Shown here in pieces: positions 20,354 to 60,405 of a DNA stretch of 64,000 bases (positions within the stretch are counted from its first letter, which is position 1; the number at the start of each line of letters is the position of its first letter). The position numbers were made by a program, and so were the translations under genes. The DNA lies in contig NC_134085.1 of the NCBI RefSeq assembly GCF_000715075.1, forward strand, positions 158,438,178 to 158,502,177, in the 5' to 3' direction. Source of the DNA: Nicotiana tabacum. Lineage: Eukaryota; Streptophyta; Magnoliopsida; Solanales; Solanaceae. The notes under the pieces were generated by a model. It saw nothing but the letters and a program-made list of their open reading frames with translations. It searched no databases and was not told the origin of the DNA.

Positions 20354-20419
20354 GAACTACGCGGGTTTGATTCTCACCGGATGTGAATACGTAGGCAACC
20401 CTCATCGGGTCCAACCCGC
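20354..20419 (+). other. Structured pseudoknot-type motif, copy B1
   Basis: P1 CTACG (20,357-361) pairs with CGTAG (20,390-394). P2 CGGGTT (20,362-367) pairs with AACCCG (20,413-418). P3 TCAC (20,374-377, C373 bulged) pairs with GTGA (20,383-386). P4 ACCC (20,398-401) pairs with GGGT (20,407-410). P2 crosses P1. It lies upstream of ORF1. Confidence 0.6.
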
Positions 20420-20750
20420 CGTTTTGCTAAAATAGCCGAAAATAAATAAATAAATAAATAAAAAACATGTCGAAGTTTTGATTCTGTCATAAAGAAGTTG
20501 GGTGTCATTGTTTTATCAAGACATAGCCAAACGTTCCCGAAAGGGACGCCGGAAGGCTGACTTTGCATAAACAGCCACCTTTGGGTCATTTTTTAAGATT
20601 TGGTCCAGTTGACCCACACAGCCTTAAAAATCTTCGTCCCTGAAGTGCTGAAAGGCCGTATATGAACAACCAAGTCCTCCGTCTTCAAAAATCAAGAATA
20701 CACAGTTCCGTTTTGAGTTTAGTAAGAGTTTTCTTTAATTACCTTAATAA

Positions 20751-22793
20751 ATGTGCAGGATGAGCACGAATCAAAATGAACCATTCTCGGCCCTCAACGA
20801 GGTCCCTCTACAACTCCACATGTGGTGGAATGATTTGGAAGCCGATAGCAAAGAGATAGTGGGAAGAGTATTGGGAGGTTTTGTCAATTTGCTGAGTATT
20901 AAGCCAAAGACAGATATTCTTGAAGCTCTAATACCATTTTGGGACCCCACCCGCAATGTATTCCATTTTGTTGACTTTGAACTTTCACCGACACTAGAGG
21001 AAGTCGCCGGATATGCGGGATTGAATGGAAGGTTAAGAGGACAATACCTACTATCGCCAAGGCCGGTATCTCCGCACGCATTTCTGGATTTGCTAAGCAT
21101 CACTCGGAAGGTACAACATGACGATTTATCGAGAGGATGTTGTGCTCTCCAATTCTTGTATCAACGGTACGGAACTCCGCAAGGTTTCGAGGAACCAAAC
21201 CTTGGACTAACTCATGGCGGGAACAGAAACAAATGGGAAGCAAGACGTACTTTGGCTTTCATCACAGCATTCTTGGGAGTCATGGTCTGTCCACGGGAGG
21301 ATAAAAAGATAGAGATAGGCCTTGCAGGGATGGCCGACTTTGCAATCAAAAGAACCGACAGTACTATTGTTCCTTTAATTTTGTCCAAAATCTACCGAGC
21401 CTTAACGATATGCCGAGAAGGAGGCAAGTTCTTCCAGGGTTGCAATCTATTACTTCAGCTATGGATGCAAGAGCACCTCCATCACCGAGTAGGATACATG
21501 AACCACGGGTTGACCGGGAGGAATTGTATCGGTGGCTTCGAGAAGCGCATGACAGGCGTCAGATTTCTTGAAGGTGTCGAAACATGGTTTACACGATTAA
21601 GGTCAACAACAGCTAACCAAATTGAATGGGCATTCGGCTGGTTGGTTGATACTAAGGTGATATACATGGCAGCTGAAGAATGTCATGTTCTCTTAATGGG
21701 ACTTTGCAGCATCCAGCCATATGCTCCTCATCGGGTATTGCGCTAGCTGGGCAGGTTTCAAGTAATCCCTACTGATGAAGATCTGAGCAAGCACGCCATT
21801 AAGCTGAGCCCAGGAGTCATATTTCCCGAGGGAAAGATTAGAAAGCTGTGGCACGAATGTAGATTCTTGGAACCCAAGACCATGGTGCGAGAATTAGCTA
21901 AAGGGGAGGTAGACCCAAAGTACGATGCTTGGTTCGAAAGAAGGTTCCAGATTCGGCAGAGACCTGCTAAAAGAGCCCACGTCCAACAATTCACGGATGA
22001 TTCACAGGAGCAATGGGGATGGTTAAAAAGGGAGGAAGGTTACCGGGTTGAAATCGGGAGGCTAAAGCAACAAGTTGAAAGGCTTATATTTGAGAACAAC
22101 ATGCAGCTCGCCTCGGAGCAGAGCGAAAAGAACAAGCTAGCCCAAGAGAACCAGACACTAAAAGCCCACCTACGTCAAGCCAGCAAAAGTAACATTGACC
22201 GACAGAAACGTCGCTCCGAAAGATTGATAGCAAGTTTGAAAAATCAGGTCGTCCAAAGCCAAGAAGAATTAGAACAATCAGAAGCTCGCGTAGCAAGGAT
22301 GAAGGTCAGATGGGCAAAATGCACAATGGCCCGGAGGCAGCGTCTGCAACAGGTCATAAGGGATTATGAAATGAGCATCGGGATATTAAGGGAAACGAAC
22401 TCCACTCTACATGATCGGATCATCAAACAAGCACGAGATGCCCAGACCGACAGAAGACATTGTTACGATGCAATGGCTTGCATGGAAAGACAAATGGAGA
22501 TGTTCCAGGATCGACTTGCTGACAATGCTCAAGCACTGGGATTAAAGAACCGACAAATAGAGCAATTGTTCGCTGAAAGGGACAACATTCGAGGAAGGAT
22601 CGACGAGATTGGGCACTACATCTACATGAGATGCCTAGCATGCGAGCAAATGCCTCGGAGAACCCTCCTTGTTTCCATCATGGGCTGCGTCCACCGGATC
22701 ATGAATGAATTAAAAAGCTTGCAGAAATACCTCACACTTAGAGCCGCGAAAAAGCCGAATGAAGCCTTGTGGGCCCCTAAGTTGGAAAATTAG
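20751..22793 (+). pseudogene. ORF1 of element B (plant-mobile-domain-like protein with coiled coil)
   Basis: A single frame of about 680 codons with one internal TAG at 21,744-21,746, where element A has Gln (CAG). The N-terminal 330 residues resemble plant mobile domain / DUF7745-like proteins: LHMWWNDLEADSKE, FWDPTRNVFHFVDFELSPTL, RRTLAFITAFLGVMVCPRED, and GGKFFQGCNLLLQLWMQEHL. From about residue 400 there is a long charged coiled coil (YRVEIGRLKQQVERLIFENN) and a Cys/Met-rich tail (MRCLACEQMPRRTLLVSIMG). The start ATG is the second of two close ones (MCRM / MST); MST matches the start of element A's ORF1 best. The role in the retrotransposon is unknown; position 5' of gag is that of Ogre ORF1. 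Confidence 0.8.
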
Positions 22794-23359
22794 TCTTCGG
22801 TCAAGTCCTGTTCATTTGACTTTTTGCTTTCCCATATGTTGTTTTCCTTTCTTTTAGCCAAATCCAGTTAAAAACTGTGGAGTCTGTACTGCTGCTATTC
22901 TTTGTTTGAAGTAATTTGTAATAGCAAATTTTGATGATAAATTCAACGATTCCAAAAAGAATTTTGTGTGTTTTTACTTTATGGCAGAACTACGCCGGTC
23001 TGATTCACGCGGGGACGTGATACGTAGGCAATCCACATAAGATTCGACCGCCTCTAAATAAAGAAAGAAAAGAAAGAAGAAAGAAAGAAAGAAGAAAATA
23101 CAAAAATAAAATACAGGGTTTCCCAAAGTGCTTTAAAAAGACAAATGAGCAAGCCGGGATGACGCATGTTGTTTGAAGTAAAGCATGTAGAAACGGTTAA
23201 CTGCCTAGGAGCATTGCATCCTCAGTGTGTTGTTATCAAATCTGTTAATATCTAACGCTAACAAAGTTTGTTGTTGTCTGGATCCAGACAGTTAGTTGTT
23301 AAAGAATTCTGGCAACACACCCTTACCAAACCAGATCCAAAGGACCGTTAGCAACAAGC
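22794..23359 (+). other. ORF1-gag intergenic region of element B
   Basis: Non-coding. Holds structured motif copy B2 (22,987-23,052) followed immediately by a GAAA-rich purine tract (23,055-23,115). Same arrangement as in element A. Confidence 0.7.
22987..23052 (+). other. Structured pseudoknot-type motif, copy B2
   Basis: P1 CTACG (22,990-994) pairs with CGTAG (23,023-027). P2 CGGTC (22,996-23,000) pairs with GACCG (23,046-050). P3 TCACG (23,005-009) pairs with CGTGA (23,016-020). P4 AATC (23,030-033) pairs with GATT (23,041-044). All helices are intact, and P2, P3 and P4 use different bases from copy B1. Confidence 0.65.
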
Positions 23360-25009
23360 ATGACTACTTCAGAGAATAGCACCGAAGAGGAAAGGCCGAT
23401 GAGCTTGTTGTTAAAAGAAGCGATGGAAAAGATTGAAAGGATGGGACTAGAGATGAATGCAATGCAGATAGCTCTAGCCAAAGCACAAAAGAGCCTTGAG
23501 CCACTGGGGCACATGCCGGAATACCCTCACTCTGGTCCTTCAACAAGCCTCCCGAATCCCCGTTATCATCAGGAAAGAAGCCCACATGATTCCCAAGCTC
23601 CACCACCCCATCAACCTCTTCCAACCCCAAATGTGCCCACTTTTGTGGGACCCACATCAGCCACCCAACAAAGAACGACCAGCGAGCCATTATTTCAGGC
23701 TCACGATATGCAATACTATCCCCCTGAGCCCATATTCCATGCCCCCGAACCACAGGCCTACAATCCGCACTTGGAAGTACCGGCAGAAATTGAAAAGCCG
23801 GTTAAAGCCCCAGAACAAGATGAGGTATTGAGGAAGTTCAAAAGCCTGGAGCAGTCCTTTAGGAACCTGCACGGATTGGGCAACTAGGTCAGCGTGGCCT
23901 ACAAAGATCTATGCCCTTTCCCGGACGTCCAACTCCCAGCTGGGTTCAAGATGCCTAAGTTTGATTTATATGAAGGGCACGGTGATCCCATGGCGTATTT
24001 GCGAGGATTCTGTAGCAAAATGAGAGGGGCAGGCAGTAAAGATGAGTTGCTGATAGCTTATTTCGGCCAAAGTCTGAGCGGATCGGCACTAGAATGGTAT
24101 ACCAAGCAGGATTCCAGCAGATAGTACACCTGGGACGATCTGGCGTAGGCTTTCGCAGGTCATTTTCAATACAATCTCGAGATAGTCCCTGACCGTCTCA
24201 CGTTATTGAGGACCGGGAAGAAGCCCGGGGAAAGTTTTCGCGAGTACGGGTTCCGCTGGAGAGAGCAAGCGGCCAGAGTCGATCCTCCCATGAGAGAGGG
24301 AGAGATGGTGGATTACATCTTGCAAACATTGGATCCAACCTACTTTGGTCACTTGGTGACGACGGTTGGAAAATCATTCAACGAGGTAGTGAAGATAGGG
24401 GTCATGATAGAAGAAGGTCTGAGGTCTGACAAAATCCTGAATTACTCGGCACTCAAGGCCACGACCCAGGCTATTCAGAGCGGCGCGGGAGGTGCACTGG
24501 GAAGAAGGAAGAAAGAAGAAATTGCCACGATTGAGGCAAGCAGTTGGTCCAGGTCTGGCAAACCCCACTACAACCAACCCAGACCTCACAGGCCAAACTA
24601 CACATACAACCCGCCACAGCACTGCTATCCGCCTCGAGAGCCACATTGCTCCGTACACCAGGCCCAGACATACACTCAGCCTCTGGTTCGCCCGCAATGG
24701 CGCGCGCCGGCTCCCCAAAACACATATGCACCACCACCAAACACCTATCCTCCACCAGGCGCATATAGAAACCCTCCAGGGGCAGGCTTTCGGGGAAATC
24801 CAGCTGCTAGGAATGACAGGCTGCGGAAACAGAGAACGTTCACTGAGTTAGGAGAAACCTACACCGCTTTGTTCCACAAATTGAGGCAATTGGGTTTGGT
24901 TAGTCCGGTCGAGACTCGAGGGCCAAATCCCCCACCCCAAAACGTGGACCAATCAATAAGCTGTGAGTACTGCTCAGGGATATTGGGGCATGATACTGAA
25001 AAGTGTTAG
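23360..25009 (+). pseudogene. Gag of element B
   Basis: Starts at ATG 23,360 (MTTSENSTEEERPM). An N-terminal helix (LLKEAMEKIERMGLEMNAMQ) and proline-rich linker precede the capsid domain (FKSLEQSFRNLHGLGN, MPKFDLYEGHGDPMAYLRGF, LIAYFGQSLSGSALEWYTKQ, KKPGESFREYGFRWREQAA). A Pro/Tyr-rich segment and a zinc knuckle (CEYCSGILGHDTEKC) follow. In-frame stops lie at 23,885 (CAG to TAG), 24,122 (TGG to TAG), 24,146 (CAG to TAG) and 25,007 (TGG to TAG), judged against element A. There is no frameshift, so decay here is by substitution only. Confidence 0.9.
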
Positions 25010-26347
25010 AAATTGAGGCATGCCATACAGGATCTTATTGATACCAATAAGATCAAGGTCCAGACACCGGAGGCTCCCAACATCAACCAGAACCCACTGT
25101 CAGCGCACCACGAGACTCACATGATTGAGTTGGTGTATGAGGGAGGAGAGTTGAGAAAACCCTCACAAACAGTGATGATGATCCAGGCCGCTCCGAAAGA
25201 AGGATCGACCAGTGAAAGAACGGGGGTACAGTTGCGAGGAGAAGGCGTCAAACCAGTAGTGATATTGGGAAAGAGCCCGTCCGCCACAACAAGCAAACCC
25301 GAGCCAAACAAGTTGGTAATATCAGGGACTCCACCCACACCTGCAGTTGTGTTGAAAGGGGTATACAGGGAACTGGTCACCATAAAGCCTGTAGTCCAGC
25401 TGCCAATGGTTGATAGCAAGGTCGTGCCTTGGAAATACGAGAAGTCAGTGGTGATGTACAAAGGAAAACAAGTGGAGGAAGTCAGCTGTGAAGCGCAAGG
25501 GCTGACTCGATCAGGACGGTGTTTTGCTCCGGTGGAGCTGAGAAGACCCAACCCAGCTGCAACCAAGAAACCTGTGTCCAAAGAAGAGGCTGAGGAGTTC
25601 TTGAGGAAAATGAAAGTGCAGGACTACTCTGTGGTCGAACAACTGAGGAAAACACCGGCCCAGATCTCGCTGCTATCATTACTAATCCATTCTGAGGAGC
25701 ATCGCAGGGCCTTGATGAAGATATTAAACGAAGCTCATGTGCCCAACGAGATTTCTGTAAACCACCTGGAAACCATTTCCAACAAGATTTTAGAGGTGAA
25801 CAGGGTAACATTCTCAGATGATGATCTGCCGATGTAAGGTACAGAGCACAATAAAGCTCTCTACCTAACTGTCAAATGCGAAAACTCTGTAGTTGCTCGG
25901 GTATTGGTGGATAACGGTTCGAGTGCCAATATTTGTCCATTATCCACTCTGAACCAGTTAAAGATCGACCACGGAAGAATCCACAAGAATAGCATCTGTG
26001 TCCGGGGATTTGATGGAAATGGAACAGCCACTGTGGGGGATGTTGTACTTGAATTGACCATCGGTCCAGTCCTGTTCACCATGGAGTTCCAGATGCTAGA
26101 TGTCACAGTATCTTATAACCTTCTGTTAGGACGACCGTGGATTCATGCAGCCAAAGCAGTGCCCTCCACCCTCCATCAGATGGTCAAGTTCGAGTGGGAT
26201 AGGCAGGAGGTCGTACTACACGGCGAGGACACGACATGCACCATGGGTGGCGCCATTGTGCCTTTCATAGAGACCGATGATGACAAAGGTCCTTGGGTCT
26301 ACCAGATTTTTGATACAGTGTCGGCAAACAAAATTTCTGAAGGATAA
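25010..26347 (+). pseudogene. Linker and aspartic protease of element B
   Basis: Same frame as gag. The linker (EEFLRKMKVQDYSVVEQL, LSLLIHSEEHRR) is conserved with A. The protease has the active-site motif VDNGSSANICP, flap region VRGFDGNGTA and C-terminal YNLLLGRPWIHAA. Asn follows the catalytic Asp where most gypsy proteases have Thr or Ser; element C has Pro there, so this position varies among these families. Stops TAA at 25,835 and TAA at 26,345 (Glu codons in element A) break the frame. It would process the gag-pol polyprotein. Confidence 0.87.
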
Positions 26348-26821
26348 ATCATCCCGCAACCTAGGGTAGCTGCCGCAACAGTCATGATGGTCTCGGAAAT
26401 GCTGGGTAATGGATTTGTGCCGGGAAAAGGCCTGGGAGTCGAGCTTCAGGGGATTGTCCAACCTGTCTCCCTGCCTAAAAATTTGGAAACTTTCGGGTTG
26501 GGGTTCAAACCAACCGCAGCAGATGTAAAGCAAGCGCGGAAAATGAAGAAGAAAGTCTGGTATCTTCCCAAACCCGTGCCACATCTCTCAAGGTCTTTTG
26601 TCAGAGCAAGGGCCAAGGAGCCACCGGTCCCAAAGATTCTCGGACCATTGATTGGGACGGACGGGAACCTAAATCAGAGTTTCGGGAGGCTATTCGCTGA
26701 TGTCAGTATGGTAGAAGCTGGAGAAGGTTCCAGCAGAGCAGAGATACAGTTTGTGGGGCCTGAGGCCAAGACCAACAATTGGACGGTCACTCCTCTTCCT
26801 GTCCGGGGGGAGTCTTTGTAG
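26348..26821 (+). pseudogene. G-patch-like segment and tail of gag-pro, element B
   Basis: Same frame as protease. Contains GNGFVPGKGLGVELQGIV, resembling a G-patch, then FGLGFKPTAADVKQARKMKKKVW (basic) and a tail ending at the TAG at 26,819. No internal stop in this copy. Element A has the same segment, so it is a regular part of this family. Nucleic-acid or helicase binding is inferred from the motif. Confidence 0.65.
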
Positions 26822-27016
26822 TAGGCTTTGGTTTATGTTTTTGTTTGTTTTGTTTTGTTTCGGATTATTCCAGGGTGTAATCCAAATTTTACTTCTGTTT
26901 TGTAAAAGTGTGAACCCTTTTATCCCGCAAGTTTAATAAAGTTCTTTTCTTTTGTCTCATTTTAATTTTGTTTTGTTCTTTTTCTGAACAGTTCTCTTTT
27001 TACTGGTTCTACTGAC
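26822..27016 (+). other. Protease-RT spacer of element B (possible intron)
   Basis: 195 T-rich bases with no coding potential. It carries an AATAAA-like sequence near 26,933 and a pyrimidine-rich 3' end with CAG at about 26,990. Same place as the intron reported for Ogre elements. Splicing would fuse gag-pro to RT; the splice sites are not proven here. Confidence 0.45.
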
Positions 27017-28174
27017 ATGGCATGCACAACGGATCTTCGACCTAGTCTAATAAATCAATCTGAATCTGACTTAGTGATACAAGAGGTCGTTTGTGGCGAT
27101 GAATCCGAATATGACGAAGATAAGGCCTTCGAAGAAATAAACCGAGAACTGTGCCAATTTGAAGAGAAACCCAAGCCTAACCTAAATGACACTGAGGCTG
27201 TGAATCTAGGAGACGCTGATAACGCCCGAGAAACCAAAATCAGCATCCACATTGAGCAGAATATCAGGGAAGAATTGATCAAAACCCTCATGGAATTCAA
27301 AGATGTTTTTGCATGGTCATATGACGATATGTCGGGGTTAAGCACCAATTTAGTGGTTCACAAATTGCCCACTGACCCGGCATACCCTCCGGTCAGGCAA
27401 AAGTTAAGGAAATTTAAAACAGAAATGAGTGTAAAGATCAAAGAAGAGGTGATTAAACAGTTGCAGGCGAAGGTCATTCGGGTCACTCGATATCCCGAGT
27501 GGTTGGCCAATGTGGTACCAGTTCCAAAGAAGGATGGAAAAATCAGGGTGTGCATTGACTACCGCAACCTCAACAAAGCAAGTCCCAAGGACAATTTTCC
27601 ATTGCCCAACATCCATATCCTGATCGATAATTGCGCTAGGTGCGAGATCGGATCCTTTGTGGATTGTTATGCGGGTTATCATCAGATCCTAATGGAAGAG
27701 GAAGATGCGGAAAAGACAACTTTTATTACGCCATGGGGAACTTACTGCTATCGGGTAATGCCGTTCGGATTGAAGAACGTCGGGGCAACATACATGCGAG
27801 CAATGACCACCGTGTTTCACGACATGATACACAAAGAAATTGAGTTGTACGTAGATGATGTGATCATAAAATCTTGGCGTCAGGAAGACCATGTAGCAGA
27901 CCTAAGGAGATTTTTCCAAAGACTCTGAAGGTATGATATCAAGCTCAACCCGGCCAAATGCGCATTCGGGGTTCCATCAGGAAAGCTGTTAGGATTCATC
28001 GTCAGTCGACGGGGTATTGAGTTAGACCCATCCAAGATCAAATCCATCAGAGATTTGCCACCGCCAAAGAACAAAATAGAGGTAATGAGTCTGTTGGGTA
28101 GACTCAATTACATCAGCAGGTTCATCGCTCAACTCACAGCAACTTGTGAGCCCATATTTCGGCTGCTGAAAAAG
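27017..28174 (+). pseudogene. Reverse transcriptase of element B
   Basis: Starts at ATG 27,017 (MACTTDLRPS). An acidic N-terminal leader precedes the RT domain: KLRKFKTEMSVKIKEEV, WLANVVPVPKKDGKIRVCID, NKASPKDNFPLPNIHILID, VDCYAGYHQILM, ITPWGTYCYRVMPFGLKN and the catalytic YVDDVIIKS. One TGA at 27,926 (CGA in the ancestor; element A has Arg) is the only break before the thumb (KLNPAKCAFGVPSGKLLGF). Otherwise in frame and better preserved than element A. Confidence 0.92.
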
Positions 28175-28702
28175 GATGTTGCGGTAAGTTGGACGGCAGA
28201 GTGTCAAGAGGCTTTCGACCAAATCAAAGGGTATCTGTCTAATCCACCCGTGTTGGTCCCACCTAAGCCAGGGAAGCCCTTAATTCTTTATCTGACGGTC
28301 CTGGAAAATTCATTTGGTTGTGTACTGGGGCAACACGATGACACAGGAAGGAAGGAGTAGGCCATCTACTATCTTAGCAAGAAATTCACAGTATATGAGG
28401 TCAAGTACACTCAACTCGAGAAAACATGCTGCGTCCTAACTTGGGTAGCTCAGAAGTTGAAGCACTACCTGTCCTCGTATAGTACTTATCTCATATCCTG
28501 TTTGGACCCATTGAAGTATATCTTTCAGAAACCTATGACCACATGGAGGTTGGCAAAATGGCAAATTCTGCTCACAGAGTTCGATATCGTTTATGTGACG
28601 AGGACAGCCATGAAAGCCCAAGCGCTGGCCGACCATTTGGCAGAGAATCCCGTTGATGAAAAATACGAGCCTGTAAGAACGTATTTTCCGACGAAGAAGT
28701 GA
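28175..28702 (+). pseudogene. RT-linked RNase H (degenerate) of element B
   Basis: Continues in the RT frame. LILYLTVLENSFGCVLGQHD aligns to the start of the gypsy RNase H but has Thr in place of the first catalytic Asp, as in element A. The Glu of YTQLEKTCCVLTW and the Asp of ALADHLAEN remain. TAG at 28,358 replaces Gln (CAG). Near 28,690 one base is missing relative to element A (PDEEV becomes PTKK), so the frame shifts before the second RNase H. Confidence 0.82.
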
Positions 28703-29130
28703 TGCATACAAGTGAGCTGGCATTACCCGAGGAACCGGGTTGGAAGCTTTTCTTCAATGGAGCTGCAAACGCGAAAGGGGTTGGAATAGGAGCAGTACTC
28801 ATTTCTGAAACAGGACGCCATTATCCTGTTACGGCTCAACTACGCTTCTATTGCACCAATAATATGGCCGAGTATGAAGCTTGCATTTTGGGTCTGCGAT
28901 TGGCTGTGGACATGGATGTCCAAGACGTTTTGGTCTTGGGAGACTCGGACCTCTTGGTACATCAGATTCAGGGCGAATGGGAAACACGGGACTTGAAACT
29001 CATACCTTATCGACAATGCTTGCACGATCTGAGCAAGCGATTTCGATCGGTGAAGTTCAAACATATCCCGAGAGTTCATAACGAGGTTGCAGATGCATTG
29101 GCCACCCTAGCATCAATGTTGCACCACCCT
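28699..29130 (+). pseudogene. Second (archaeal-type) RNase H of element B
   Basis: Open in the +1-shifted frame. Motifs: LFFNGAANAKG, NMAEYEACILGL, VLGDSDLLVHQ, HNEVADALATLAS. The first catalytic Asp is replaced by Asn (AAT at 28,756-28,758; GAT in element A), so this domain should be inactive in this copy even without the frameshift. The domain is the Tat-lineage extra RNase H that compensates for the degenerate RT-linked one. Confidence 0.87.
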
Positions 29131-30295
29131 GACAAAATATATGTTGACCCTCTGCACATCCAGGTTTGTGATCAGCATGCTTATTGCAACGCAGTGGAAG
29201 AGGAAGTAGATGGCAAGCCCTGGTTTCATGATATCAAGGAGTACCTCAGAATGGGGATATATCCAGAACAGGCCACTGGAGACCAGAAAAGAGCCCTCCA
29301 GCGTTTGTCAAATGGTTTCTTCCTCAGCGGAGGAGTGTTATACAGAAGAACCCCGGATTTGGGACTGTTAAGATGTATAGACGCCGGTCAGACCACGACG
29401 ATCATGGCAGAGGTACATGCTGAAGTTTGTGGGCCACATATGAGCGGATATGTGTTAGCAAGGAAGATCCTTCGAGCAGGGTATTACTGGCTCACCATGG
29501 AGCATGACTGTATCACTTTCGTGAGGAAATGCCATCAGTGTCAGATACATAGAGATCTAATTCATTCTCCGCCAACAGAGTTGCATACGATGTTAGCACC
29601 CTGGCCGTTTGTTGCATGGGGCATGGACGTATGGCAACAATGGTGCGAATCTTAACACCATCTTGATGAAAGAGGTATGCCAACAATTCAAGATTACACA
29701 CCGCAATTCTACCCCATATCACCCCAAGGCGAATGGAGCGGTAGAAGCAGCCAATAAGAACATCAAGAAGATACTGCGAAAGATGGTGGAAGGATCTAGA
29801 CAATGGCACGAGAGATTACCCTTTGCTTTGTTGGGTTATCGCACTACCGTCCGGACTTCCATAGGTGCGACTCCTTATTTGTTGATGTACGGAACTGAGG
29901 CCGTAATACCAGCGGAGGTCGAAATTCCGTCCCTCCGGATTGTCGCTGAAGCCGAGATTGATGATAATGAATGGGTCAAAGCTCGATTGGAACAGTTGAT
30001 CTTGATAGACGAGAAAAGATTGGCAGCGGTATGCCATGGTCAGCTGTATCAGAAGAGAATGGCAAAGGCATACAATAAGAAGGTACGCCCCAGGAAGTTT
30101 GAAGTAGGGCAGCAGGTAGTGAAGCGGATCCTCCCGCATCAAGTCAAAGCAAAAGGCAAGTTCGCCCCAAATTGGCAAGGGCCTTATATCGTGACCAGAG
30201 TGTTGTCCAACGGTGCTTTGTGTCTGACGGATATCGAGGGAAGATGTGTCGACATGGCTATCAATTCGGATGCAGTCAAGAGATATTACGCATAA
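29131..30295 (+). pseudogene. Integrase of element B, catalytic core partly deleted
   Basis: The zinc-binding N-terminus is intact (HAEVCGPHMSG, CHQC). After WGMDV at about 29,630 some 180 bp of the core present in element A are missing, including the second catalytic Asp (TDN). The deletion also shifts frame; the sequence resumes as NLNTILMKEVCQQFKI with the catalytic Glu (NGAVEAANKN). The C-terminal region (GYRTTVRTSIGATPYLLMYG, then VGQQVVKRILPHQVKAKGKF, NWQGPYIVTRVL) follows to TAA at 30,295. Integration of this lineage must rely on enzyme from other copies. Confidence 0.9.
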
Positions 30296-30555
30296 TTTCT
30301 TTAATTATGGCAATTGTCGGTTCATTTGCTTGTATTTGGCACTTATTGGATAATGAAATGACGGAGGCAATTCTTTCTTCTATCCAAACACTTTTTACCC
30401 TTGTTTCCCCCTTTTTGAGCCTTAAGTTATTCTTTCATATCCCCCTTTTGGAATCACATAATGGAAAGATATGAAAAAAAAGAAGAAAAGAGAAAGAAAA
30501 ATTTAAAAGAAAATGAAAAAAAAAATAAAAATCACAAGAAAAACGAAACCGTTAG

Positions 30556-30613
30556 GAACTACGTTTGACCTGATTCCTCAAAGAGGATACATAGGCGCCT
30601 CACTGCTCGGTCA
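30556..30613 (+). other. Structured pseudoknot-type motif, copy B3
   Basis: P1 CTACGT pairs with ACATAG with one mismatch. P2 TGACC (30,566-570) pairs with GGTCA (30,609-613). P3 TCCTC (30,575-579) pairs with GAGGA (30,583-587). P4 is weak or absent. The helices are made of different bases from copies B1 and B2. It lies about 260 bp after the integrase stop codon. Confidence 0.55.
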
Positions 30614-31026
30614 TAGTGTGCATAGTGTACATAAGTGTGCATAATAGCACAGTGTGCGTAACGCACATAGCTCAACATAGTGTAAAAAATAAAATCCCCC
30701 AAGCAAGAAAACTGGGGCAGGGGTTATGTTTTAAAGTTCCAGCAAAAGTTTGATTCCAAAAGTTGTAGTGGCTCACCCGTCAGAGTTATTTCAAATTTTG
30801 ATAGCTTTTTTTTTGCCCCACACCAAAACCAACATCGATATCCAAAAAAGACCTCCCGATCAACCTCCAGGAGGTGCCAAGTCAGGCAGATAAAGCCGAG
30901 AATAATACACTAATCCCCGGCAAAGAAGAGGATCACGAAACTGGAAATGAATTGATAGTCCAAAGGAATCTCCAGAAGAGAGGGTCATATCGGCAACACT
31001 CCAATTCTCCTTTGAAGAAATAAAAT

Positions 31027-41860: not shown

Positions 41861-42199
41861 TCTAGGTCGCCCACCAGTATAATGCGGGAATACTTTCTGT
41901 TCTAGGTCGCCCACCAGTATAATGCGGGAATACTTTCTGTTCTAGGTCGCCCACCAGTATAATGCGGGAATACTTTCTGTTCTAGGTCGCCCACCAGTAT
42001 AATGCGGGAATACTTTCTGTTCTAGGTCGCCCACCAGTATAATGCGGGAATACATTTCTGTTCTAGGTCGCCCACCAGTATAATGCGAGAATACATTTCT
42101 GTTCTAGGTCGCCCACCAGTATAATGCGGGAATACATTTCATGTTCTAGGTCGCCCACCAGTATAATGCGGGAATACTTTCTGTTCTAGGTCGCCCACC

Positions 42200-45100: not shown

Positions 45101-48100
45101 GTCGCCCACCAGTATAATGCGGGAATACCTTTCTGTTCTAGGTCGCCCACCAGTATAATACGAGAATACATTTCTGTTCTAGGTCGCCCACCAGTATAAT
45201 CCGGGAATACTTTCTGTTCTAGGTCGCCCACCAGTATAATGCGGGAATTCATTTCTATTCTAGGTCGCCCACCAGTATAATGCCGGAATACATTTCTGTT
45301 CTAGTTCGCCCGCCAGTATAATGCGGGAATACTTTCTGTTCTAGGTCGCCCGCCAGTATAATGCGGGAATGCTTTCTGTTCTAGGTCGCCCGCCAGTATA
45401 ATGCGGGAATACATTTCTGTTCTAGGTCGCCCACCAGTATAATGCGGGAATACTTTCTGTTCTAGGTCGCCCACCAGTATAATGCGGGAATACTTTCTGT
45501 TCTAGGTCGCCCACCAGTATAATGCGGGAATACTTTCTGTTCTAGGTCGCCCACCAGTATAATGCGGGAATACATTTCTGTTCTAGGTCGCCCACCAGTA
45601 TAATGCAGGAATACATTTCTGTTCTAGGTCGCCCACCAATATAATGCAGGAATACTTTCTGTTCTAGGTCGCCCGCCAGTATAATGCGGGAATACATTTC
45701 TGTTCTAGGTCGCCCACCAGTATAACGCGGGAATACTTTCTGTTCTAGGTCACCCACCAGTATAATGCGGGAATACTTTCTGTTCTAGGTCGCCCACCAG
45801 TATAATGCGGGAATACTTTCTGTTCTAGGTCGCCCACCAATATAATACGGGAATACTTTCTGTTCTAGCTCGCCCACCAGTATAATGCGGGAATACATTT
45901 CTGTTCTAGGTCGCCCACCAGTATAATGCGGGAATACATTTCTGTTCTAGGTCGCCCACCAGTATAATGCGGGAATACATTTCTGTTCTAGGTCGCCCAC
46001 CAGTATAATGCAGGAATACTTTCTGTTCTATGTCGCCCGCCAGTATAATGCGGGAATACATTTCTGTTCTAGGTCGCCCACCAGTATAATGCGGGAATAC
46101 TTTTTGTTCTAGGTCGCCCACCAGTATAATGCGGGAATACATTTCTGTTCTAGGTCGCCCACCAGTATAATGCGGGAATACTTTCTGTTCTAGGTCGCCC
46201 ACCAGTATAATGCGGGAATACTTTCTGTTCTAGGTCGCCCACCAGTATAATGCGGGAATACTTTCTGTTCTAGGTCGCCCACCAGTATAATGCGGGAATA
46301 CTTTCTGTTCTAGGTCGCCCACCAGTATAATGCGGGAATACTTTCTGTTCTAGGTCGCCCACCAGTATAATGCGGGAATACTTTCTGTTCTAGGTCGCCC
46401 ACCAGTATAATGCGGGAATACATTTCTGTTCTAGGTCGCCCACCAGTATAATGCGGGAATACTTTCTGTTCTAGGTCGCCCACCAGTATAATGCGGGAAT
46501 ACATTTCTGTTCTAGGTCGCCCACCAGTATAATGCGGGAATACTTTCTGTTCTAGGTCGCCCACCAGTATAATGCGGGAATACTTTCTGTTCTAGGTCGC
46601 CCACCAGTATAATGCGGGAATACTTTCTGTTCTAGGTCGCCCACCAGTATAATGCGGGAATACATTTCTGTTCTAGGTCGCCCACCAGTATAATGCGGGA
46701 ATACTTTCTGTTCTAGGTCGCCCACCAGTATAATGCGGGAATACTTTCTGTTCTAGGTCGCCCACCAGTATAATGCGGGAATACTTTCTGTTCTAGGTCG
46801 CCCACCAGTATAATGCGGGAATACATTTCTGTTCTAGGTCGCCCACCAGTATAATGCGGGAATACATTTCTGTTCTAGGTCGCCCACCAGTATAATGCGG
46901 GAATACATTTCTGTTCTAGGTCGCCCACCAGTATAATGCGGGAATACTTTCTGTTCTAGGTCGCCCACCAGTATAATGCGGGAATACTTTCTGTTCTAGG
47001 TCGCCCACCAGTATAATGCGGGAATACTTTCTGTTCTAGGTCGCCCACCAGTATAATGCGGGAATACTTTCTGTTCTAGGTCGCCCACCAGTATAATGCG
47101 GGAATACTTTCTGTTCTAGGTCGCCCACCAGTATAATGCGGGAATACATTTCTGTTCTAGGTCGCCCACCAGTATAATGCGGGAATACATTTCTGTTCTA
47201 GGTCGCCCACCAGTATAATGCGGGAATACTTTCTGTTCTAGGTCGCCCACCAGTATAATGCGGGAATACTTTCTGTTCTAGGTCGCCCACCAGTATAATG
47301 CGGGAATACCTTTCTGTTCTAGGTCGCCCACCAGTATAATACGAGAATACATTTCTGTTCTAGGTCGCCCACCAGTATAATCCGGGAATACTTTCTGTTC
47401 TAGGTCGCCCACCAGTATAATGCGGGAATTCATTTCTATTCTAGGTCGCCCACCAGTATAATGCGGGAATACATTTCTGTTCTAGTTCGCCCGCCAGTAT
47501 AATGCGGGAATACTTTCTGTTCTAGGTCGCCCGCCAGTATAATGCGGGAATGCTTTCTGTTCTAGGTCGCCCGCCAGTATAATGCGGGAATACATTTCTG
47601 TTCTAGGTCGCCCACCAGTATAATGCGGGAATACTTTCTGTTCTAGGTCGCCCACCAGTATAATGCGGGAATACTTTCTGTTCTAGGTCGCCCACCAGTA
47701 TAATGCGGGAATACTTTCTGTTCTAGGTCGCCCACCAGTATAATGCGGGAATACATTTCTGTTCTAGGTCGCCCACCAGTATAATGCGGGAATACATTTC
47801 TGTTCTAGGTCGCCCACCAGTATAATGCGGGAATACTTTCTGTTCTAGGTCGCCCACCAGTATAATGCGGGAATACTTTCTGTTCTAGGTCGCCCACCAG
47901 TATAATGCGGGAATACATTTCTGTTCTAGGTCGCCCACCAGTATAATGCGGGAATACATTTCTGTTCTAGGTCGCCCACCAGTATAATGCGGGAATACTT
48001 TCTGTTCTAGGTCGCCCACCAGTATAATGCGGGAATACTTTCTGTTCTAGGTCGCCCACCAGTATAATGCGGGAATACTTTCTGTTCTAGGTCGCCCACC

Positions 48101-49150
48101 AGTATAATGCGGGAATACCTTTCTGTTCTAGGTCGCCCACCAGTATAATACGAGAATACATTTCTGTTCTAGGTCGCCCACCAGTATAATCCGGGAATAC
48201 TTTCTGTTCTAGGTCGCCCACCAGTATAATGCCGGAATTCATTTCTATTCTAGGTCGCCCACCAGTATAATGCAGGAATACATTTCTGTTCTAGTTCGCC
48301 CGCCAGTATAATGCGGGAATACTTTCTGTTCTAGGTCGCCCGCCAGTATAATGCGGGAATGCTTTCTGTTCTAGGTCGCCCGCCAGTATAATGCGGGAAT
48401 ACATTTCTGTTCTAGGTCGCCCACCAGTATAATGCGGGAATACTTTCTGTTCTAGGTCGCCCACCAGTATAATGCGGGAATACTTTCTGTTCTAGGTCGC
48501 CCACCAGTATAATGCGGGAATACTTTCTGTTCTAGGTCGCCCACCAGTATAATGCGGGAATACATTTCTGTTCTAGGTCGCCCACCAGTATAATGCAGGA
48601 ATACATTTCTGTTCTAGGTCGCCCACCAATATAATGCAGGAATACTTTCTGTTCTAGGTCGCCCGCCAGTATAATGCGGGAATACATTTCTGTTCTAGGT
48701 CGCCCACCAGTATAACGCGGGAATACTTTCTGTTCTAGGTCACCCACCAGTATAATGCGGGAATACTTTCTGTTCTAGGTCGCCCACCAGTATAATGCGG
48801 GAATACTTTCTGTTCTAGGTCGCCCACCAATATAATACGGGAATACTTTCTGTTCTAGCTCGCCCACCAGTATAATGCGGGAATACATTTCTGTTCTAGG
48901 TCGCCCACCAGTATAATGCGGGAATACATTTCTGTTCTAGGTCGCCCACCAGTATAATGCGGGAATACATTTCTGTTCTAGGTCGCCCAAGTATAATGCG
49001 GGAATACATTTCTGTTCTAGGTCGCCCACCAGTATAATGCAGGAATACTTTCTGTTCTATGTCGCCCGCCAGTATAATGCGGGAATACATTTCTGTTCTA
49101 GGTCGCCCACCAGTATAATGCGGGAATACTTTTTGTTCTAGGTCGCCCAC
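42200..49150. repeat. Higher-order repeat block 2 (2,102-bp period, third copy displaced)
   Basis: The variant GTATAATACGAGAATACA occurs at 42,242, 43,051, 44,344, 45,153, 47,334 and 48,143. Pairs are always 809 bp apart. Copies 1 and 2 are 2,102 bp apart; copy 3 is displaced by a largely homogeneous stretch of monomers at about 46,200-47,250. Confidence 0.85.
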
Positions 49151-51899
49151 CAGTATAATGCGGGAATACTTTCTGTTCTAGGTCACCCACCAGTATAATG
49201 CGGGAATACTTTCTGTTCTAAGTCGCCCACTAGTATAATGCGGGAATACTTTCTGTTATAGGTCGCCCACCAGTATAATGCGGGAATACTTTCTGTTCTA
49301 GGTCGCCCGCCAGTATAATGCGGGAATACATTTCTGTTCTAGGTCGCCCACCAGTATAATGCGGGAATACTTTCTGTTCTAGGTCGCCCACCAGTATAAT
49401 GCGGGAATACTTTCTGTTCTAGGTCGCCCACCAGTATAATGCGGGAATACTTTCTGTTCTAGGTCGCCCACCAGTATAATGCGGGAATACTTTCTGTTCT
49501 AGGTCGCCCACCAGTATAATGCGGGAATACTTTCTGTTCTAGGTCGCCCACCAGTATAATGCGGGAATACATTCATGTTCTAGGTCGCCCACCAAGTATA
49601 ATGCGGGAATACATTTCTGTTCTAGGTCGCCCACCAGTATAATGCGGGAATACTTTTTGTTCTAGGTCGCCCACCAGTATAATGCGGGAATACATTTCTG
49701 TTCTAGGTCGCCCACCAGTATAATGCGGGAATACTTTCTGTTCTAGGTCGCCCACCAGTATAATGCGGGAATACTTTCTGTTCTAGGTCGCCCACCAGTA
49801 TAATGCGGGAATACTTTCTGTTCTAGGTCGCCCACCAGTATAATGCGGGAATACTTTCTGTTCTAGGTCGCCCACCAGTATAATGCGGGAATACTTTCTG
49901 TTCTAGGTCGCCCACCAGTATAATGCGGGAATACTTTCTGTTCTAGGTCGCCCACCAGTATAATGCGGGAATACATTTCTGTTCTAGGTCGCCCACCAGT
50001 ATTAATGCGAGAATACTTTCTGTTCTAGGTCGCCCACCAGTATAATGCGGGAATACTTTCTGTTCTAGGTCGCTCACCAGTATAATGCGGGAATACTTTC
50101 TGTTCTAGGTCGCCCACCAGTATAATGCGGGAATACATTTCTGTTCTAGGTCGCCCACCAGTATAATGCGGGAATACATTTCTGTTCTAGGTCGCCCACC
50201 AGTATAATGCGGGAATACATTTCTGTTCTAGGTCGCCCACCAGTATAATGCGGGAATACATTTCTGTTCTAGGTCGCCCACCAGTATAATGCGGGAATAC
50301 ATTTCTGTTCTAGGTCGCCCACCAGTATAATGCGGGAATACATTTCTGTTCTAGGTCGCCCACCAGTATAATGCGGGAATACATTTCTGTTCTAGGTCGC
50401 CCACCAGTATAATGCGGGAATACATTTCTGTTCTAGGTCGCCCACCAGTATAATGCGGGAATACATTTCTGTTCTAGGTCGCCCACCAGTATAATGCGGG
50501 AATACATTTCTGTTCTAGGTCGCCCACCAGTATAATGCGGGAATACATTTCTGTTCTAGGTCGCCCACCAGTATAATGCGGGAATACTTTCTGTTCTAGG
50601 TCGCCCACCAGTATAATGCGGGAATACTTTCTGTTCTAGGTCGCCCACCAGTATAATGCGGGAATACATTCATGTTCTAGGTCGCCCACTAGTATAATGC
50701 GGGAATACATTTCTGTTCTAGGTCGCCCACCAGTATAATGCGGGAATACATTTCTGTTCTAGGTCGCCCACCAGTATAATGCGGGAATACATTTCTGTTC
50801 TAGGTCGCCCACCAGTATAATGCGGGAATATATTTCTGTTCTAGGTCGCCCGCCAGTATAATGCGGGAATACATTTCTGTCTTTGTCGCCCGCCAGTATA
50901 ATGCGGGAATACATTTCTGTTCTAGGTCGCCCACCAGTATAATGCGGGAATACTTTCTGTTCTAGGTCGCCCACCAGTATAATGCGGGAATACTTTCTGT
51001 TCTAGGTCGCCCACCAGTATAATGCGGGAATACTTTCTGTTCTAGGTCGCCCACCAGTATAATGCGGGAATACATTTCTGTTCTAGGTCACCCACACCAG
51101 TATAATGCGGGAATACATTTCTGTTCTAGGTCGCCCACCAGTATAATGCGGGAATACATTTCTGTTCTAGGTCGCCCACCAGTATAATGCGGAAATACAT
51201 TTCTGTTCTAGGTCGCCCGCCAGTATAATGCGGGAATACATTTCTGTTCTAGGTCGCCCACCAGTATAATGCGGGAATACTTTCTGTTCTAGGTCGCCCA
51301 CCAGTATAATGCGGGAATACATTTCTGTTCTAGGTCGCCCACCAGTATAATGCGGGAATACTTTTTGTTCTAGGTCGCCCACCAGTATAATGCGGGAATA
51401 CATTTCTGTTCTAGGTCGCCCACCAGTATAATGCGGGAATACTTTCTGTTCTAGGTCGCCCGCCAGTATAATGCGGGAATACATTTCTGTTCTAGGTCGC
51501 CCACCAGTATAACGCGGGAATACTTTCTGTTCTAGGTCACCCACCAGTATAATGCGGGAATACTTTCTGTTCTAGGTCGCCCGCCAGTATAATGCGGGAA
51601 TACATTTCTGTTCTAGGTCGCCCACCAGTATAAAGCGGGAATACTTTCTGTTCTAGGTCGCCCACCAGTATAATGCGGGAATACATTCATGTTCTAGGTC
51701 GCCCACCAGTATAATGCGGGAATACTTTCTGTTCTAGGTCGCCCACCAGTATAATGCGGGAATACTTTCTGTTCTAGGTCGCCCACCAGTATAATGCGGG
51801 AATACTTTCTGTTCTAGGTCGCCCACCAGTATAATGCGGGAATACTTTCTGTTCTAGGTCGCCCACCAGTATAATGCGGGAATACTTTCTGTTCTAGGT

Positions 51900-54800
51900 C
51901 GCCCACCAGTATAATGCGGGAATACTTTCTGTTCTAGGTCGCCCACCAGTATAATGCGGGAATACATTTCTGTTCTAGGTCGCCCACCAGTATAATGCGG
52001 GAATACTTTCTGTTCTAGGTCGCCCACCAGTATAATGCGGGAATACTTTCTGTTCTAGGTCGCCCACCAGTATAATGCGGGAATACATTTCTGTTCTAGG
52101 TCGCCCACTAATATAATGCGGGAATACATTTCTGTTCTAGGTCGCCCACCAGTATAATGCGGGAATACTTTTTGTTCTAGGTCGCCCACCAGTATAATGC
52201 GGGAATACCTTTCTGTTCTAGGTCGCCCACCAGTATAATGCGGGAATACATTCATGTTCTAGGTCGCCCACCAGTATAATGCGGGAATACTTTCTGTTCT
52301 AGGTCGCCCACCAGTATAATGCGGGAATACTTTCTGTTCTAGGTCGCCCACCAGTATAATGCGGGAATACATTTCTGTTCTAGGTCACCCACCAGTATAA
52401 TGCGGGAATACTTTCTGTTCTAGGTCGCCCACCAGTATAATGCGGGAATACTTTCTGTTCTAGGTCGCCCACCAGTATAATGCGGGAATACTTTTTGTTC
52501 TAGGTCGCCCACCAGTATAATGCGGGAATACCTTTCTGTTCTAGGTCGCCCACCAGTATAATGCGGGAATACATTCATGTTCTAGGTCGCCCACCAGTAT
52601 AATGCGGGAATACTTTCTGTTCTAGGTCGCCCACCAGTATAATGCGGGAATACTTTCTGTTCTAGGTCGCCCACCAGTATAATGCGGGAATACATTTCTG
52701 TTCTAGGTCACCCACCAGTATAATGCGGGAATACTTTCTGTTCTAGGTCGCCCACCAGTATAATGCGGGAATACTTTCTGTTCTAGGTCGCCCACCAGTA
52801 TAATGCGGGAATACATTTCTGTTCTAGGTCGCCCACCAGTATAATGCGGGAATACTTTCTGTTCTAGGTCGCCCACCAGTATAATGCGGGAATACTTTCT
52901 GTTCTAAGTCGCCCACCAGTATAATGCGGGAATACTTTCTGTTCTAGGTCTCCCACCAGTATAATGCGGGAATACATTTCTATTCTAGGTCGCCCACCAG
53001 TATAATGCGGGAATACTTTCTGTTCTAGGTCGCCCACCAGTATAATGCAGGAATACTTTCTGTTCTAGGTCGCCCACCATTATAATGCGGGAATACATTT
53101 CTGTTCTAGGTCGCCCACCAGTATAATGCGGGAATACTTTCTGTTCTAGGTCGCCCACCAGTATAATGCGGGAATACTTTCTGTTCTAGGTCGCCCACCA
53201 GTATAATGCGGGAATACTTTCTGTTCTAGGTCACCCACCAGTATAATGCGGGAATACTTTCTGTTCTAGGTCACCCACCAGTATAATGCGGGAATACTTT
53301 CTGTTCTAAGTCGCCCACTAGTATAATGCGGGAATACTTTCTGTTATAGGTCGCCCACCAGTATAATGCGGGAATACTTTCTGTTCTAGGTCGCCCACCA
53401 GTATAATGCAGGAATACATTTGTGTTCTAGGTCGCCCACCAGTATAATGTGGGAAGTATAATGCGGGAATACATTTCTGTTCTAGGTCGCCCGCCAGTAT
53501 AATGCGGGAATACTTTCTGTTCTAGGTCGCCCGCCAGTATAATGCGGGAATACTTTCTGTTCTAGGTCGCCCGCCAGTATAATGCGGGAATATTTCCTAT
53601 TCTAGGTCGCCCACCAGTATAATGCGGGAATACTTTCTGTTCTAGGTCGCCCACCAGTATAATGCGGGAATACTTTCTGTTCTAGGTCGCCCACCAGTAT
53701 AATGCGGGAATACTTTCTGTTCTAGGTCGCCCACCAGTATAATGCGGGAATACTTTCTGTTCTAGGTCGCCCACCAGTATAATGCGGGAATACTTTCTGT
53801 TCTAGGTCGCCCACCAGTATAATGCGGGAATACATTTCTGTTCTAGGTCGCCCACCAGTATAATGCGGGAATACTTTCTGTTCTAGGTCGCCCACCAGTA
53901 TAATGCGGGAATACTTTCTGTTCTAGGTCGCCCACCAGTATAATGCGGGAATACATTTCTGTTCTAGGTCGCCCACTAATATAATGCGGGAATACATTTC
54001 TGTTCTAGGTCGCCCACCAGTATAATGCGGGAATACTTTTTGTTCTAGGTCGCCCACCAGTATAATGCGGGAATACCTTTCTGTTCTAGGTCGCCCACCA
54101 GTATAATGCGGGAATACATTCATGTTCTAGGTCGCCCACCAGTATAATGCGGGAATACTTTCTGTTCTAGGTCGCCCACCAGTATAATGCGGGAATACTT
54201 TCTGTTCTAGGTCGCCCACCAGTATAATGCGGGAATACATTTCTGTTCTAGGTCACCCACCAGTATAATGCGGGAATACTTTCTGTTCTAGGTCGCCCAC
54301 CAGTATAATGCGGGAATACTTTCTGTTCTAGGTCGCCCACCAGTATAATGCGGGAATACTTTTTGTTCTAGGTCGCCCACCAGTATAATGCGGGAATACC
54401 TTTCTGTTCTAGGTCGCCCACCAGTATAATGCGGGAATACATTCATGTTCTAGGTCGCCCACCAGTATAATGCGGGAATACTTTCTGTTCTAGGTCGCCC
54501 ACCAGTATAATGCGGGAATACTTTCTGTTCTAGGTCGCCCACCAGTATAATGCGGGAATACATTTCTGTTCTAGGTCACCCACCAGTATAATGCGGGAAT
54601 ACTTTCTGTTCTAGGTCGCCCACCAGTATAATGCGGGAATACTTTCTGTTCTAGGTCGCCCACCAGTATAATGCAGGAATACATTTCTGTTCTAGGTCGC
54701 CCACCAGTATAATGCGTGAATATTTTCTGTTCTAGGTCGCCCACCAGTATAATGCGGGAATACTTTCTGTTCTAAGTCGCCCACCAGTATAATGCGGGAA

Positions 54801-55560
54801 TACTTTCTGTTCTAGGTCTCCCACCAGTATAATGCGGGAATACATTTCTATTCTAGGTCGCCCACCAGTATAATGCGGGAATACTTTCTGTTCTAGGTCG
54901 CCCACCAGTATAATGCAGGAATACTTTCTGTTCTAGGTCGCCCACCATTATAATGCGGGAATACATTTCTGTTCTAGGTCGCCCACCAGTATAATGCGGG
55001 AATACATTTTTGTTCTAGGTCACCCACCAGTATAATGCGGGAATACTTTCTGTTCTAGGTCGCCCACCAGTATAATGCGGGAATACTTTCTGTTCTAGGT
55101 CGCCCACCAGTATAATGCGGGAATACTTTCTGTTCTAGGTCACCCACCAGTATAATGCGGGAATACTTTCTGTTCTAAGTCGCCCACTAGTATAATGCGG
55201 GAATACTTTCTGTTATAGGTCGCCCACCAGTATAATGCGGGAATACTTTCTGTTCTAGGTCGCCCACCAGTATAATGCAGGAATACATTTGTGTTCTAGG
55301 TCGCCCACCAGTATAATGCGGGAAGTATAATGCGGGAATACATTTCTGTTCTAGGTCGCCCGCCAGTATAATGCGGGAATACTTTCTGTTCTAGGTCGCC
55401 CGCCAGTATAATGCGGGAATACTTTCTGTTCTAGGTCGCCCGCCAGTATAATGCGGGAATATTTCCTATTCTAGGTCGCCCACCAGTATAATGCGGGAAT
55501 ACTTCCTGTTCTAGGTCGCCCACATGTATAATGCGGGAATACTTTCTGTTCTAGGTCGCC
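51900..55560. repeat. Higher-order repeat block 3 (two copies, about 1.87 kb)
   Basis: The truncated-unit junction GGGAAGTATAATGCGGG recurs at 53,451 and 55,320 (1,869 bp apart). The variant CGCCCACTAATATAATG at about 52,108 recurs at about 53,976 (1,868 bp). Confidence 0.8.
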
Positions 55561-56565
55561 CACCAGCATAATGCGGGAATACCTTTCTGTTCTAGGTCGC
55601 CCACCAGTATAATGCGGGAACACATTTCTGTTCTAGGTCGCCCACCAGTATAATGCGGGAACACATTTCTGTTCTAGGTCGCCCACCAGTATAATGCGAG
55701 AATACTTTCTGTTCTAGGTCGCCCACCAATATAATGCGGGAATACTTTCTGTTCTAGGTCGCCCACCAGTATAATGCGGGAATACTTTTTGTTCTAGGTC
55801 GTCCACCAGTATAATGCGGGAATACTTTCTGTTCTAGGTCGCCCACCAGTATAATGCGGGAATACTTTCTGTTCTAGGTCGCCCACCAGTATAATGTGGG
55901 AATGCTTTCAGTTCTAGGTCGCCCACCAGTATAATGCGGGAGTACATTTATGTTTTACATTCAGGCGCCCACCTGTACAACAAGAGGAATACTTTTTAGT
56001 CTTATGCTGCAGACTTTGAAATCAGTAACCCCACCGGAAGGTAGAAGGTTACAACAGGAATCCCCAGCAGAAAACAATAAAAATCTCCAACACCAAGAAG
56101 CAGAAGATTGCAGACTCAAGTGAATGTGTCAAAAGGAAGAAAGGACGCGTCTTGAAAGAAGCGGCTTGTAAACATTAAATCATGCCCAGCATAGCAAACT
56201 GATGAAGAGAACTGTACCACCGGATGAACCACTGAAAAGCTTAATAAAGAAAGCCATGTCCCCAGCGGGACAAGCAAAATAATGAAAACTGGCATTCAGA
56301 AAGGCAAAGGACCAGTGTCGTCCCCGAAGTTCACAAAATAAAGGCATCGGAGGAAAACGCAAGCCGACAAGAAATCAAGGCGACAAGAACAAGTTGAAGA
56401 TAGATAAGATCTTATGATCCATAGGCTAGCCTAGCTTCTTGTTTTCTTTTTAGCACAATGTAACAAGGAGATTGGTAAGCGGTAACATCCTCTAGCAGCA
56501 TGTGACAGCACACAACAGCAGCAAACACTACAGTCACACGGTAGTCCCAGCTACCAAAACTTCCC

Positions 56566-56635
56566 GAACTACATTGACCTGATTCCTGTTCAGCCCAGGA
56601 TATGTAGGAAACCTCTGAAGCAAAGGTTCGATCAA
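56566..56635 (+). other. Structured pseudoknot-type motif, copy B4
   Basis: P1 CTACAT (56,569-574) pairs with ATGTAG (56,602-607). P3 TCCTG (56,584-588) pairs with CAGGA (56,596-600). P4 AACC pairs with GGTT. P2 TTGA pairs with TCAA. The P1 change G to A on one side is matched by C to T on the other, compared with B1 and B2. It lies 91 bp before the polypurine tract. Confidence 0.6.
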
Positions 56636-60400: not shown

Positions 60401-60405
60401 GTAAC
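60401..60405 (+). other. Right target-site duplication of element B
   Basis: GTAAC directly after the 3' LTR end; pairs with GTAGC at 15,846-15,850 with one mismatch. Confidence 0.75.

Follow-up and report, generated by a model that had tools for sequence, protein, structure and literature searches.

A pseudoknotted RNA motif recurs at non-coding junctions of putative Ogre/Tat-type retrotransposons in Nicotiana tabacum

RESULTS

Six motif copies lie at the non-coding junctions of two retrotransposons

We analyzed a 64,000-nucleotide stretch of the Nicotiana tabacum genome (the window), which contains two long terminal repeat (LTR) retrotransposons, here called elements A and B (Table 1). A preliminary description, made from the letters of the window, had reported six copies of a ~65-nt motif with four helices, P1 to P4, at non-coding junctions of these elements. 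The exact letters were found at all six places, the junction location holds for both elements, and each copy lies on the sense strand of its own element. Element A carries the first two motif places (5′ LTR/ORF1 and ORF1/gag; ORF, open reading frame), and the left window edge cuts off the rest. All six copies were recovered independently by a covariance model, R1, which contains helices P2, P3, and P4 and was trained on 81 copies, none of them from the window. In the window R1 matched only the six named copies, with E values of 4.2e-14 to 6.2e-10 (56.1 to 76.2 bits), and detected no seventh match up to an E value of 10. The letters GAACTAC occur seven times in the window, in the six motifs and once more at position 15319, and the six window occurrences of ATAyrTAGG are all inside motif copies.

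Table 1. Motif copies and element features in the window
Feature	Coordinates	Strand	Location or content	R1 score (E value) or other support
Motif copy B1	20354..20418	+	5′ LTR/ORF1 gap	64.2 bits (1.3e-11)
Motif copy B2	22987..23051	+	ORF1/gag gap	76.2 bits (4.2e-14)
Motif copy B3	30556..30614	+	3′ of pol, 5′ of tandem array	56.1 bits (6.2e-10)
Motif copy B4	56566..56635	+	tandem array/3′ LTR gap	63.5 bits (1.8e-11)
Motif copy A1	9698..9763	-	second element (element A)	66.5 bits (4.2e-12)
Motif copy A2	7114..7179	-	element A	72 bits (3.2e-13)
5′ LTR, element B	15848..19525	+		BLAST pair with 56736-60401, 97.5% identity, 3683 columns
3′ LTR, element B	56736..60401	+		same BLAST pair as 5′ LTR
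ORF1	20751..22793	+	one frame, two open stretches split by a stop	first stretch matches PF10536 plant mobile domain and DUF7745
gag-pol region	23303..30474	+	stop-interrupted	reverse transcriptase, RVT_3, integrase zinc finger
Tandem array	32122..55954	+	40-bp unit, ~589 copies	
Element A	1..11231	-	truncated by left window edge	internal region 74% identical to element B

The motif is a structured pseudoknot RNA

The fetched loci yielded 114 motif copies (102 distinct); after removal of eight with shifted parsing, 94 remained, equal to 87 distinct rows. These share the layout GAA, P1 (CUACG or CUACA), P2, UGAU, P3 hairpin (UC...GA), UA, P1′, G, P4 hairpin, YC, P2′, in which P3 usually begins within TGATTC, as TGAT-[TC....GA]-TA. 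Among the window copies, B4 has the A-U form of P1 (CUACAU/AUGUAG), and P1 of B3 contains a C.A mismatch (TACATAGG), which is absent from the preliminary description. Copy B1 has an unusual P3 end (GTGAATACG), where relatives of the same position class mostly have GTGAGATACG, and P2 is weak in A1. The weakness of P4 in B3, already pointed out in the preliminary description, was confirmed in its class: among the 12 class 3 rows, P4 is GCC/GGC in five and pairs with G-U in two more, and the rest, B3 included, are mismatched.

We examined the helices in a structure-blind MAFFT alignment of the 81 non-window copies, in which 80 distinct copies were scored. The drawn helices pair in 92.8% of 1520 cells, whereas sliding one strand by one to three columns lowers this to 41.1% or less, and the covariation claimed from six copies persisted in this larger set (0.481 versus 0.233 when shuffled; 0 of 500 shuffles reached the observed value). 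Given no structure, RNAalifold draws P2, P3, and P4. We also scanned 1431 stems against a null of 200 alignments in which substitutions were re-dealt along the tree. With only Watson-Crick pairs counted, P2 ranked first, P3 second and third, and the inner four pairs of P1 fifth, all exceeding 200 of 200 null maxima; the outer four P1 pairs ranked seventh, and 71 of 200 null maxima equaled or exceeded them. With G-U pairs allowed, P2 passed (0 of 200 null maxima) and P3 nearly so (3 and 11 of 200). In this second scan, ranks 2 to 4 went to stems that join the 5′ strand of P2 to the 3′ side of P4 and that can form in many copies; an alternative pairing is therefore possible, and the RNA may switch between two forms through it.

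Branches with double changes that keep a pair were more numerous than the null in P2 (6; null mean 0.67, maximum 4), P3 (13; mean 0.96, maximum 6), and P4 (5; mean 0.70, maximum 4), and one was found in P1 (mean 0.12, maximum 1). A base-agnostic covariation test placed five predicted pairs at the top of 1770 column pairs, each weak against the phylogenetic null (0.05 to 0.75 expected per alignment); the fifth pair of P1 was placed 10th. Because the first sample was picked by letters inside P1, and by UGAUUC and AUA, invariance at those positions is partly built in. We therefore examined P1 in 100 places listed by a freer pattern: all five pairs were formed in 87 (G-U allowed), with one mismatch in 12 and two in 1. 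The fifth pair was G-C in 77, A-U in 12, G-U in 6, A-C in 3, and U-C in 2 of these places, and the fourth pair showed a single double change, to U-A. P1 is thus nearly invariant and shows little covariation, and it is probably real, given its constant complementarity and few double changes.

The joints GAA, UGAU, UA, the G after P1′, and the C before P2′ are near-constant, the first three being partly required by the search pattern. The conserved C between P4 and P2′ noted previously stands directly 5′ of the P2′ strand in 80 of the 87 rows. Together, these results indicate that the motif is a structured pseudoknot RNA. The strand order first proposed, P1-P2-P3-P3′-P1′-P4-P4′-P2′, stands for P2 and P3 on the stem scan and RNAalifold, with less strong backing for P1 and P4.

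The motif has the strand order of HDV-like ribozymes and departs from them in other features

Ribozymes related to that of hepatitis delta virus (HDV) have the strand order P1-P2-P3-P3′-P1′-P4-P4′-P2′. Their P1 is ~7 bp long and starts at the cleavage site; pyrimidines of loop L3 pair with G letters after P1′ to form P1.1, and joint J4/2 holds the catalytic C followed by A-rich letters. The motif has the same order, its P1 part being weakly tested by covariation. Its P1 has 5 bp, with a sixth pair in 19 of 47 rows scored, and GAA stands 5′ of P1. L3 contains CC in 37 of 87 rows and any of CC, CT, TC, or TT in 46 of 87, a generous count in that one class 1 C can pair in P3; in class 3, L3 is AAA in most rows. 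P2′ directly follows the C, the last two letters before P2′ being TC in 51 and CC in 26 of 87 rows, so that J4/2 consists of one or two bases. At gathering scores, Rfam 15 gave no match in the window or in L004, a plant-derived locus described below, and up to an E value of 10 it gave none for copy B2 or for 20 short loci with one copy each. Over the same range, a single weak match to an unrelated long noncoding RNA (E = 1.9) overlapped the end of copy B1. The Rfam comparison lists no HDV family (RF00094 and relatives) for the motif.

The HDV-type reading of the preliminary description thus holds for the strand order, and membership in the family beyond it is not supported by the sequences, given the short P1, the lack of a conserved P1.1, a J4/2 of one or two bases, and the absence of Rfam ribozyme matches. 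The motif resembles HDV-like ribozymes such as those of L1Tc/SIDER and R2 in strand order, in its retroelement hosts, and in the C between P4 and P2′. In contrast to them it has constant UGAU and UA joints, GAA 5′ of P1, and several copies per element. The precedent previously invoked was that of non-LTR retrotransposons, whereas the host here is an LTR element. In the portion of PMC4035085 that was available, P1.1 is named as an element of HDV-like ribozymes, and such ribozymes are described in trypanosomatid retrotransposons.

The motif is conserved in relatives without matching genes

Copies were grouped into five position classes. Within classes, motif identity is 0.91 to 0.95, a value that the search pattern fixes in part; flank identity is 0.20 to 0.60 in three of the five (class 1, non-autonomous class 2, and class 3), and in these three the onset of conservation is abrupt at G1. 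We compared 16 hand-picked intervals between neighboring copies in the fetched loci with the proteins of the window elements. No match was detected in 13 of the 16, a comparison that distant proteins could escape; five control loci did match. The matching intervals contained ORF1 in two cases (L074 and L076) and gag in one (L087).

One such stretch (L038/L039) has an LTR end and non-coding junctions in common with element B and carries five motif copies, all sense, with no coding match to the window element proteins. Two near-identical first-class copies in it (L038:1939-2004 and L038:2168-2233) are 229 bp apart and have dissimilar flanks, so the motif may have been duplicated there as a whole. 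Since intervals without a match to these proteins, and L038/L039, keep their copies, the motif is unlikely to serve solely in the translation or separation of ORFs.

The motif is abundant in the tobacco genome

Exact pattern matches were counted on both strands of the 3,996,098,646-base genome from which the window comes. The core pattern matched 81,884 times (41,551 on the plus and 40,333 on the minus strand; reversed-pattern control, 0 and 0). A freer pattern, with no fixed 5′ P1 letter and only the last 3′ P1 letter fixed, matched 30,727 and 31,700 times (control, 5 and 8), and a pattern with G-C as the fifth P1 pair matched 47,716 times (control, 0).

A motif copy follows a hAT transposase gene in another plant

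When bacterial genomes were scanned, one clean motif copy, L004, came up on a contig of mixed plant and bacterial origin that is assigned to a Bacilli metagenome-assembled genome from roe deer jejunum. Upstream of it, a reading frame that stays open for at least 656 codons (L110; G001 contig 163, 7600-9923) encodes hAT domains (Dimer_Tnp_hAT, E = 1.9e-21; hAT RNase-H fold, E = 2e-9). The closest named relatives of this transposase are from Dipteronia, with others in Acer, Xanthoceras, and more plants, so this part of the contig is plant DNA, which probably came from food. The motif starts 52 nt after the transposase stop codon. By eye, P1, P2 (GGCCUU/AAGGCC), P3, and P4 (seven pairs) are all paired in L004, and nested folding of this copy gave z = −2.2. 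A model built from 52 G000 copies among the 80 other aligned copies, to which L004 was unseen, scored it at 50.5 bits (E = 9.9e-9); decoys L003 and L001 scored 19.1 and 11.6 bits. As judged from these domains upstream of the motif, the context appears to be a plant hAT transposon. Its ends were not found, the 3′ side of the plant part entering bacterial sequence. The contig is an assembly or binning chimera, with the plant transposase beside bacterial ssb-like sequence.

Searches of viral and bacterial sequences and of the literature

In a viral collection, a strict pattern found two stretches and a second pattern none; the three stretches found by a third resembled GIY-YIG-type coding DNA by eye. 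Two looser patterns found 10 and at least 120 stretches. Applied to 89 of those viral loci, R1 gave four weak matches (best, 18.7 bits, E = 0.41), which we took as chance. No pol relative was confirmed in the viral collection. The bacterial locus L003 (~19 bits, E = 0.04) was likewise attributed to chance, since its P1 and P2 were unpaired by eye. The open-license PubMed Central literature searched, mostly titles and the starts of abstracts and exclusive of preprints, contained no description of the motif; one candidate article, PMC12513839, was unrelated in the part available. Among 40 of the 568 articles containing the core letters, no title concerned retrotransposon RNA, and in one of them the letters came from a maize actin primer. 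It is possible that the motif has been published elsewhere.

The host is a putative giant Ogre/Tat-type element

Element B measures ~44.5 kb end to end (15848-60401), of which 23.8 kb is one array of the 40-bp unit. Its RVT_3 domain is one that we take to be an archaeal-type RNase H, and an integrase core domain was detected in element A. Ogre/Tat elements are characterized by an extra ORF with a plant mobile domain, an archaeal-type RNase H, and 3′ tandem repeats in the available portions of PMC6317226 and PMC7004042. On the basis of its LTRs, RVT_3 domain, extra ORF with the plant mobile domain, and 3′ tandem repeats, the sequence identifies the host as an LTR retrotransposon of Ogre/Tat type (Ty3, OTA clade). 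In contrast to the Ogre/Tat elements surveyed in PMC6317226, which in the part available span 4.4 to 24.1 kb, element B is longer and contains the large array; the same part of that survey does not mention the RNA motif.

On the minus strand, a Retrotrans_gag open frame at 60191-61162 overlaps the 3′ LTR end of element B and extends past it. This frame probably belongs to another retrotransposon, and the R1 window search found no motif copy near it. At 13760-14057 lies a 131-bp tandem repeat with units resembling inverted parts of the element B LTRs.

DISCUSSION

Variable yet paired helices and near-constant joints suggest that the motif keeps one shape and presents a sequence-specific surface. 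We propose that the motif would be a structured RNA of ~60 to 80 nt that acts in cis within transposon transcripts. It is predicted to form an H-type pseudoknot in which P1 crosses P2, with hairpin P3 in the second loop and hairpin P4 in the third. A host or element protein may bind it and thereby decide on the export, stability, or packaging of the transcript; carrying several copies would strengthen the effect, and gene-less elements would keep the motif because they need the same handling. A non-catalytic, protein-read handle of this kind is the reading that we lean toward, at somewhat better than even chances and with no firm choice among the three fates, in view of the apparently fixed shape, the persistence of the motif without matching genes, the harm expected from self-cleavage, and the hAT copy.

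Several results weigh against this reading. Both-sided changes, found in 13 of 19 pairs, were also reached by 12 of 500 shuffles. P4 failed the Watson-Crick stem scan (rank 10, or 9 if shifted by one column; equaled or exceeded by 196 of 200 null maxima), and with G-U allowed both P1 (168 and 200 of 200) and P4 (108 of 200) failed. Changes that break pairs occurred at about the frequency of the tree-based null, which would be anticipated if a large share of the copies is defunct. For the six window copies, nested folding energies were no better than those of shuffled sequences (z = −0.79 to 0.81). Flanks are conserved too in class 4 (0.46 to 0.95) and in autonomous class 2 (n = 3; 0.54 to 0.93), and motif identity within classes is raised by the choice of the classes on their P3 letters. 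The hAT link consists of one chimeric contig that runs on into bacterial ssb and other bacterial genes (named by eye). Of 67 hAT genes listed in the own genome, 18 distant ones (28 to 32% identical) were followed downstream, and none of these 18 stretches carried the motif (best partial match there, E = 1.8). Should the hAT copy be real, packaging would be excluded as the general role.

Could the motif instead be a self-cleaving ribozyme that has HDV topology, forms a class of its own, and cuts close to the 5′ G of GAACUAC? The strand order, the short helices with constant joining letters, the C before P2′, and the abrupt start of conservation at G1 in three classes all point that way. So do known parallels: in addition to the trypanosomatid HDV-like ribozymes, hammerheads occur in plant retrozymes according to the part of PMC4918200 available. 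Those retrozymes resemble the present hosts as non-autonomous plant LTR elements with a structured RNA; in contrast to the motif, which lies in internal regions, their hammerhead is in the LTRs and has another fold. We consider a ribozyme unlikely, given the departures from the HDV family described above and the three conserved letters 5′ of P1. In addition, cutting at four sites would be expected to leave in pieces the genomic RNA that reverse transcription requires, and cleavage within the transposase 3′ untranslated region to strip the poly(A) tail. A block of 5′-3′ decay leaving stable downstream RNAs, by analogy to exonuclease-resistant RNAs (xrRNAs), would suit a compact pseudoknot with copies kept in the absence of coding regions. 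Known xrRNAs have a different strand order and no Rfam xrRNA matched the motif, which makes such a block improbable. The motif places, before ORFs and in 3′ regions, do resemble those of intergenic and 3′ plant-virus xrRNAs (PMC6299227, in the part available), where intergenic xrRNAs may leave such RNAs; the pseudoknotted xrRNA_D of Tombusviridae and Luteoviridae nevertheless belongs to a different family.

The preliminary description had also offered translation entry or separation of messages as roles. Copies B1 and B2 do stand 5′ of ORFs, where an element for internal entry or reinitiation could serve ORF1 and gag-pol. Copies B3 and B4 are followed by no same-strand ORF of at least 200 codons, relatives without a matching ORF1 keep copies flanking its place, L038/L039 retains its five, and the hAT copy stands after an ORF rather than before one. 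A role confined to ORF1 and gag-pol translation or RNA separation is thus not supported, given these relatives, and a translation element appears very unlikely. Least credible is a conserved DNA site (for a protein, recombination, or replication) that pairs by chance. The strongly conserved core and the near-identical L038 pair with dissimilar flanks would fit it, whereas the pair-keeping double changes in P2, P3, and P4 exceed every null maximum, and the slid and shuffled controls fall far below the observed pairing and covariation.

No Rfam 15 family matched the motif in these searches, yet one genome holds more than 80,000 core matches. Because relatives that lack matching genes retain it, the motif points to something that very abundant plant retrotransposons need in cis. 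A new self-cleaving ribozyme class, or an equally autonomous functional RNA, with several copies per transcript and tens of thousands in one plant genome, common to LTR retrotransposons and hAT elements across distant flowering plants, would be the farthest-reaching outcome, and we regard it as doubtful. If the motif is a ribozyme or an exonuclease block, the view of plant retrotransposon RNA processing would change; if it is a protein handle, it would serve directly as bait for the factor. The hAT copy poses the question of whether unrelated transposons have an RNA module in common.

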